Origin: an uncultured Nitrosopumilaceae archaeon
GTDB lineage: Archaea; Thermoproteota; Nitrososphaeria; Nitrososphaerales; Nitrosopumilaceae
Direction of reading: 5' to 3'
DNA: 43,140 nucleotides
Assembly (NCBI GenBank): GCA_937897875.1
Contig: CALCPD010000006.1
Location: 1-43,140, forward strand
Shown here: piece by piece, positions 28,214 through 29,184 of the stretch
Layout of the letters: each line of letters begins with the position of its first letter
Numbering within the stretch: the first letter of the stretch is position 1
Notes under the pieces: model-generated
The model's database searches: none
Seen by the model: only the letters and a program-made list of their open reading frames with translations
What the model was told of the DNA's origin: nothing
Made by a program: the position numbers and the translations under genes

Positions 28214-28858
28214 TTATTTTTTCTTTCCTTGTTTATCAAAACCATCTTTGTTGAATCCATCTTTTTTGAAACCATCTTTGTTGAATCCAGCAGTGTTAAA
28301 CAAAGTATGAGTTACAAAGTGAGTACCATCTTTATCAAAACTATTTTTATCATACCCATATTTGTTGAATCCATCTTTATCATATCCTAGTTTGTCAAAA
28401 CCACCTTTATCAAATCCTTCTTCATTGAATTTTGTTCCAGTTGTTTCATAATTTCCATCTTTGTTTAATCCAGCAGTGTTAACTAAAGTACCAGTTGCTA
28501 TGTGAATACCACTTTTATCATATCCATCTTTATCATATCCATTTTTGTTAAATCCATCTGCATAATACCCATTTTTATTAAAACCATCTTTGTCAAATCC
28601 TTCTTCATTGAATTTTGTGTCAGTTGCTTTGTGATATCCATCTTTGTTGAATGGTGTTCCAGTTGCTTCATAATTTCCATCTTTGTTTAATCCAGAAGTA
28701 TTAACCAAAGTACCAGTTGCTATGTGAATGCCATCTTTATCATATCCATTTTCATCATATCCATTTCTACTGAATCCATCTTGATCATATCCTAGTTTGT
28801 TGAATTTTGTTCCAGTTGCTTTGTGATATCCATCTTTGTTGAATCCATCTTTACTCAT
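28214..28858 (-). CDS. Low-complexity F/Y-[DN]-K-[DN]-G repeat protein
   Basis: Many degenerate 5-aa repeats such as GFNKDGYDKDG within longer units ending IATGTLVNTxGLNKDGNYEATGT; no obvious signal peptide. Confidence 0.85.
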   Translation of the reverse strand: MSKDGFNKDGYHKATGTKFNKLGYDQDGFSRNGYDENGYDKDGIHIATGTLVNTSGLNKDGNYEATGTPFNKDGYHKATDTKFNEEGFDKDGFNKNGYYADGFNKNGYDKDGYDKSGIHIATGTLVNTAGLNKDGNYETTGTKFNEEGFDKGGFDKLGYDKDGFNKYGYDKNSFDKDGTHFVTHTLFNTAGFNKDGFKKDGFNKDGFDKQGKKK

Positions 28859-28936: not shown

Positions 28937-29184
28937 TAGGCAACTGACATCTGAAAATAAGCAAAAATTAAGCAGCTAATAAGCACCTAACATCTCAATT
29001 AAGTAAAAAATAAGCAAAAATTAAGCAGCTAATAAGCACTTCATAAGCAAAATTAAGTACTTAATTTACTCAGGCACGTATCACAGTTTTGCTTAATAAG
29101 CACCTAATAAGCAAAATTAAGCAGCTAATAAGCAACAGGTATCTCAATTAAGCAAAATTAAGTACTTAATATCTCAATTAGGCA
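28937..29184. repeat. Helically phased array of TAAGCA/TAAGTA/TAGGCA and (C/T)ATCTCA-type motifs (about 10.5-bp period)
   Basis: TAAGCA-like hexamers at 28937, 28958, 28969, 28980, 29000, 29011, 29022, 29033, 29044, 29054, 29097, 29108, 29118, 29129, 29149, 29159, 29179. Confidence 0.9.

Follow-up and report, generated by a model that had tools for sequence, protein, structure and literature searches.

In the archaeal contig analysed here, the region between a repeat-protein gene and an arginase-family gene carries short hexamers that recur at about the pitch of the DNA helix. What is this array, how did it come to lie at this locus, and what do its regular spacing and its conservation mean? 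The DNA examined, referred to below as the window, is one whole contig of 43,140 nucleotides (G000:C6) from a marine, ammonia-oxidising archaeon of Nitrosopumilus type; the genome comprises 1.22 Mb, split over 94 contigs.

The hexamer counts given in an earlier note on this DNA were reproduced exactly: TAAGCA occurs 12 times, TAAGTA three times and TAGGCA twice, all on the + strand. The exact TAAGCA copies span positions 28958-29154, with TAAGTA at 29000, 29054 and 29159 and TAGGCA at 28937 and 29179. Copies of a second motif, YATCTSA, start at 28948, 28991, 29140 and 29170. When hexamers and YATCTSA motifs are counted together, 21 of 24 slots of ~10.5 bp are occupied, as the note had stated. 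The three vacant slots form a single-copy core at about 29060-29096, which contains CTCAGGCACGTAT and an inverted TGCTTA at 29090. The proposed helical phasing also held, with the refinement that individual steps usually measure 11 or 10 bp, a few falling within 9-12 bp, and that 10.5 bp is their average. The best-fit period of the array is 10.60 bp, with a phase coherence R of 0.90. One chain takes in all 17 hexamers at successive distances of one to four helical turns; the chain never exceeded 3 hexamers (mean 1.6) in 2000 dinucleotide shuffles of the region, and it reached at most 2 when the whole window was shuffled 100 times. No other hexamer of the contig is as clustered as TAAGCA, and higher-order structure is present inside the array in the form of a 53-bp unit at 28958/29011. 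The array is a real and unusual structure. It is intergenic and non-coding, as had been claimed; a coding reading was rejected, since the step does not correspond to whole codons and TAA and TAG occur within the recurring words.

Table 1. Features of the window around the phased array, and the aligned copies of the array.
Feature	Contig	Positions	Strand	Description
Phased array	G000:C6	28937-29184	+	17 TA[A/G]G[C/T]A hexamers and 4 YATCTSA motifs
Left end module	G000:C6	28937-28955	+	TAGGCAACTGACATCTGAA; common to the TAGGCA-type copy in G045:C39
Left block	G000:C6	28958-29059	+	TAAGCA/TAAGTA units with the 53-bp higher-order repeat
Core	G000:C6	29060-29096	+	contains TTTACTCAGGCACGTATCACAGTTTTGCTTAA
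Right block	G000:C6	29097-29164	+	TAAGCA/TAAGTA units
Right end module	G000:C6	29170-29184	+	TATCTCAATTAGGCA
Exchange tract (probable, recent)	G000:C6	28764-29222		contains the array; only 5 differences from another species, G039 (NIOZ-UU110)
Repeat-protein gene	G000:C6	28214-28858	-	214 aa, DKDGFNKDGY type, no Pfam family; downstream of the array
Arginase/agmatinase family gene	G000:C6	29202-30074	-	PF00491; upstream of the array
Array copy	G000 window			arginase/repeat-protein gene locus
Array copy	G039:C77			same place as the window copy, 99% identical
Array copy	G039:C175			upstream of purC
Array copy, TAAGCA-type	G045:C34			arginase locus
Array copy, TAGGCA-type	G045:C39			arginase locus on a second contig
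Array copy, short	G045:C54			beside leuS
Array copy, TAGGCA-type	G088:C45			junction of two truncated genes

The location directly upstream of the repeat-protein gene was likewise correct. The array begins 79 bp before the start codon of that gene, and 18 bp separate its other end from the arginase stop codon. The repeat-protein gene is itself built from 15-bp and 183-bp coding repeats, and several relatives that lack the array also have this gene. Further neighbours encode threonyl-tRNA synthetase, a CDP-alcohol phosphatidyltransferase, ribosomal protein S26e, a pfkB kinase and NAD kinase; from this gene content, the array is chromosomal. The seven nearby genes that were tested are all housekeeping genes or without a family, with no replication, partition or transposition gene among them. 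A plasmid iteron or a parS-type centromere was rejected because no replication or partition gene adjoins the array among these seven. A CRISPR array was also rejected, since the repeated words of the array are 6 bp long, follow one another at 10-11 bp and are separated by spacers that recur, whereas CRISPR arrays have identical repeats of ~23-50 bp and unique spacers.

DNA and pattern searches found members of the array family in 4 of 252 Nitrosopumilaceae genomes, a sample that consists mostly of fragmented MAGs or partial genomes. Seven copies of about 75-250 bp were aligned (Table 1; the gene names purC and leuS were assigned by reading translated ORFs), and each genome holds only one to three of them. 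A triple TARGCA pattern matched 3 of the 96 genomes of the genus, and reversed patterns, used as controls, scored near zero. With a looser triple pattern, the only additions were some scattered single matches and unrelated 10-bp minisatellites; the one in G113:C61 (L316), from another genus of Nitrosopumilaceae, is a perfect run of about ten copies of TAGGCGTGGC. The core pattern CAGGCACGTAT was discarded as a probe on its own, most of its matches in the genus being chance occurrences outside arrays. Pattern scans of viral contigs returned unrelated matches only: L155, L157, L160, L163 and L164 contain phased AAGCA-rich runs that look like coding repeats, and L165 has a palindromic TAAGCATGCTT array at the contig end. 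In open-access papers, text searches retrieved no account of a similar Nitrosopumilus repeat family. In G045, two versions of the arginase locus were found, each with a different array (L264, L265), which suggests that this assembly is a mixture of strains.

The copies share a common anatomy. The left module aligns as YATYTGRAA. The internal units are near-palindromic TTARGCNNCTAA units of 10-11 bp (TTAGGCGCCTAA / TTAAGTACTTAA), accompanied by YATCTSA units. The right module is CTCAAWTAGG, followed by GAAAATA in several copies. As an exact pattern, the wider right module CTCAAWTAGG..RRGAAAATA occurs in only two of the 252 family genomes, G045 and G088, with zero matches in the controls; the right module of the window departs from it by one spacer base. 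Five of the seven copies (the window, both G039 copies, G045:C34 and G088:C45) contain the core CTCAGGCACGTAT, and in the same five an inverted unit (TGCTTA or TGCCTA) comes after it. The switch from TAGGC to TAAGC type affects the whole array, including this inverted core unit (TGCCTA to TGCTTA), and the window copy retains TAGGCA at both outer edges. Between G045 and the window, an identical T-to-A change precedes TAAG in four units, which we read as a sign of concerted change among the units. Periods of 10.36-10.60 bp, with R of 0.80-0.96, were found in five copies of differing make-up.

Shared end modules with a variable number of internal units, together with occurrence at four unrelated loci in four genomes, are features of BOX/BIME-like repeats. 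The array is probably a copy of a small, lineage-restricted Nitrosopumilus family of non-coding interspersed modular repeats of this kind, spread by recombination. Each copy would consist of TTARGCNNCTAA and YATCTSA units between a left and a right end module, with a short core in most copies. The number of units may grow or shrink by slippage or by unequal exchange of units. New species would be reached by recombination, of which we see one probable exchange tract, and recombination may also be the route to new loci. It is very unlikely that the array is instead an ordinary local minisatellite, produced by slippage without dispersal. Such an origin would fit the tandem higher-order repeats in the array, and unrelated 10-bp minisatellites do exist in the Nitrosopumilaceae, for example the (TAGGCGTGGC)n of G113; however, it is contradicted by the one single-copy core and by end modules that recur at unrelated loci.

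Comparison of insertion sites showed that the array is missing from its locus in close relatives (L023, L026, L027, L029 and L030) in which the repeat-protein gene is present. Conversely, the window genome has an empty purC site: where G039 has ~345 bp with the array, there is only a 15-bp gap. The G045:C54 array sits where relatives have a gene for a 140-aa membrane-type protein. No convincing end-to-end inverted match was found in the copies, so that they lack the terminal inverted repeats of MITEs. A target-site duplication was not identifiable at the empty purC site, where the flanks are too diverged for a call. A transposition mechanism is therefore unsupported, which counts against our preferred explanation, as do the low copy number, the fragmented or partial state of most genomes and the two versions of the arginase locus in G045. 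Two further observations concern the insertion sites. A contig of G043 (C5; L254, L260) starts ~30 bases beyond the point at which the purC array of G039 ends and is 98% identical to G039 there, as if the assembly had been interrupted by an array; G043 also has, on a different contig, a purC locus without an array. The sequence GATGATANNNACATGA adjoins arrays at three loci, and elsewhere in the 1.14 Mb of fetched sequence it occurs only at a gene end in L179. It was set aside as an array-linked motif, because at one locus a relative that lacks the array has it too, as the end of an intact gene.

The window copy and its G039 counterpart differ at 3 of 248 bases (98.8% identity) without indels. 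This identity extends over a tract of 459 bp whose edges, at 28763 and 29223, are sharp and lie inside both flanking coding sequences. Outside the tract, the flanking genes are 82-90% identical, and base-by-base differences jump at once to 10-18%. The arginase gene is 86% identical overall and 60% identical at fourfold sites, and within the array spacers and hexamers are conserved to the same degree. If selection acted on the array alone, the synonymous sites of both neighbours would be left unprotected; a short tract was therefore probably exchanged recently between the lineages by recombination. The main caveat is that an assembly chimera could imitate such a tract. We also considered whether strong purifying selection might explain the 98.8% identity, and set this aside in view of the sharp edges in both coding sequences and the equal conservation of spacers. 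Given this probable exchange, the high identity is no evidence of function. The earlier note had also proposed a nucleoid, segregation or regulatory scaffold. A fixed chromosomal scaffold for segregation or regulation is unlikely because the array is a copy of a dispersed repeat and is missing from the same place in close relatives, and because its near-identity to the G039 copy falls within an exchange-like tract. A phased repeat that was apparently exchanged between species in a short tract provides a concrete way to mark recombination in this abundant marine lineage.

All copies have the helical phase in common. It may be inherited from the 10-11-bp unit, or kept for a dimeric DNA-binding protein along one face of the helix; of the two, we slightly favour passive inheritance. 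It is possible, though not probable, that the array acts as a set of multiple operators or as an array for a nucleoid protein, such that a dimeric protein reads the near-palindromic units on one face, spreads cooperatively and controls a neighbouring promoter. The period is maintained in copies of differing make-up (R 0.80-0.96), the TAGGC-to-TAAGC change of the near-palindromic unit includes the inverted core unit, and the array precedes the repeat-protein gene, as another copy does purC in G039. However, the neighbouring genes make up no common regulon, the orientation of the array to them varies, the same promoters exist in relatives without the array, and the uniform identity across the exchange tract is not motif-specific conservation.

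Intrinsic bending, another proposal of the earlier note, was not borne out by a curvature model: predicted curvature is not exceptional and 12% of contig windows are equally curved. Another idea is that the array is a natural histone-positioning sequence, one that would nucleate a hypernucleosome and in which A/T steps and G/C steps recur in antiphase with a 10.5-bp period. DNA in which A/T and G/C motifs alternate is favoured by archaeal histones (PMC10151503). At 10.52 bp, the array has a higher spectral power of TA and of GC than every other contig window; in four copies, A/T steps are offset from G/C steps by about half a turn; and the genome of the window has one histone-fold gene. We nevertheless regard histone positioning as unlikely, since repeating TAAGCA alone creates the A/T-G/C alternation, predicted curvature is ordinary, and the array is only 30% G+C while the reported preference of histones is for G+C-rich DNA (PMC10151503). 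Equally doubtful is the broader proposal that the array is a natural, mobile chromatin-organising sequence of archaea, whose 24 face-phased turns would offer a platform to a histone or a sequence-specific nucleoid protein and which would be passed between species as a unit. If true, such a platform could re-set chromatin at any promoter beside which it inserts. According to a recent study, no genome has yet yielded a sequence highly similar to Clone20 or 601 (PMC10151503); the array is a naturally occurring candidate for a histone-positioning sequence.

A structured or regulatory RNA is extremely unlikely. Folding z-scores of -2.3 to -3.1 were obtained in two TAGGCA-type copies only, whereas the window copy and the purC copy gave values from -0.03 to -1.9. 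There was also no Rfam match of note, and it is not obvious what a 10.5-bp phase would mean for an RNA.

The array is best filed as a low-copy, helically phased form of interspersed modular intergenic repeats. BOX elements have a modular structure and stable RNA stems, and the REP/BIME elements of enterobacteria are built from longer hairpin-forming REP units, usually in hundreds of copies. Like REP/BIME elements, the array is an intergenic mosaic of palindromic units and other motifs, but its dyads are about 11 bp long and without a loop. Like the BOX elements of Streptococcus pneumoniae (PMC3049150), it is intergenic and interspersed. It also has their modular build, in which end modules enclose internal units that vary in number. 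The likeness is one of organisation, and there are differences: the array is archaeal, has helically phased 10-11-bp units and a very low copy number, and stable RNA stems are not consistently seen in its copies. MITE-like repeats such as the enterobacterial RU elements are also short, non-coding, dispersed and patchy among relatives (PMC2759123), whereas the array is without terminal inverted repeats or a clear target duplication. With Clone20 and 601 (PMC10151503), the array shares A/T and G/C steps that alternate in helix phase; those sequences are artificial, whereas the array is natural, A+T-rich and dispersed, with histone binding as a candidate property only.
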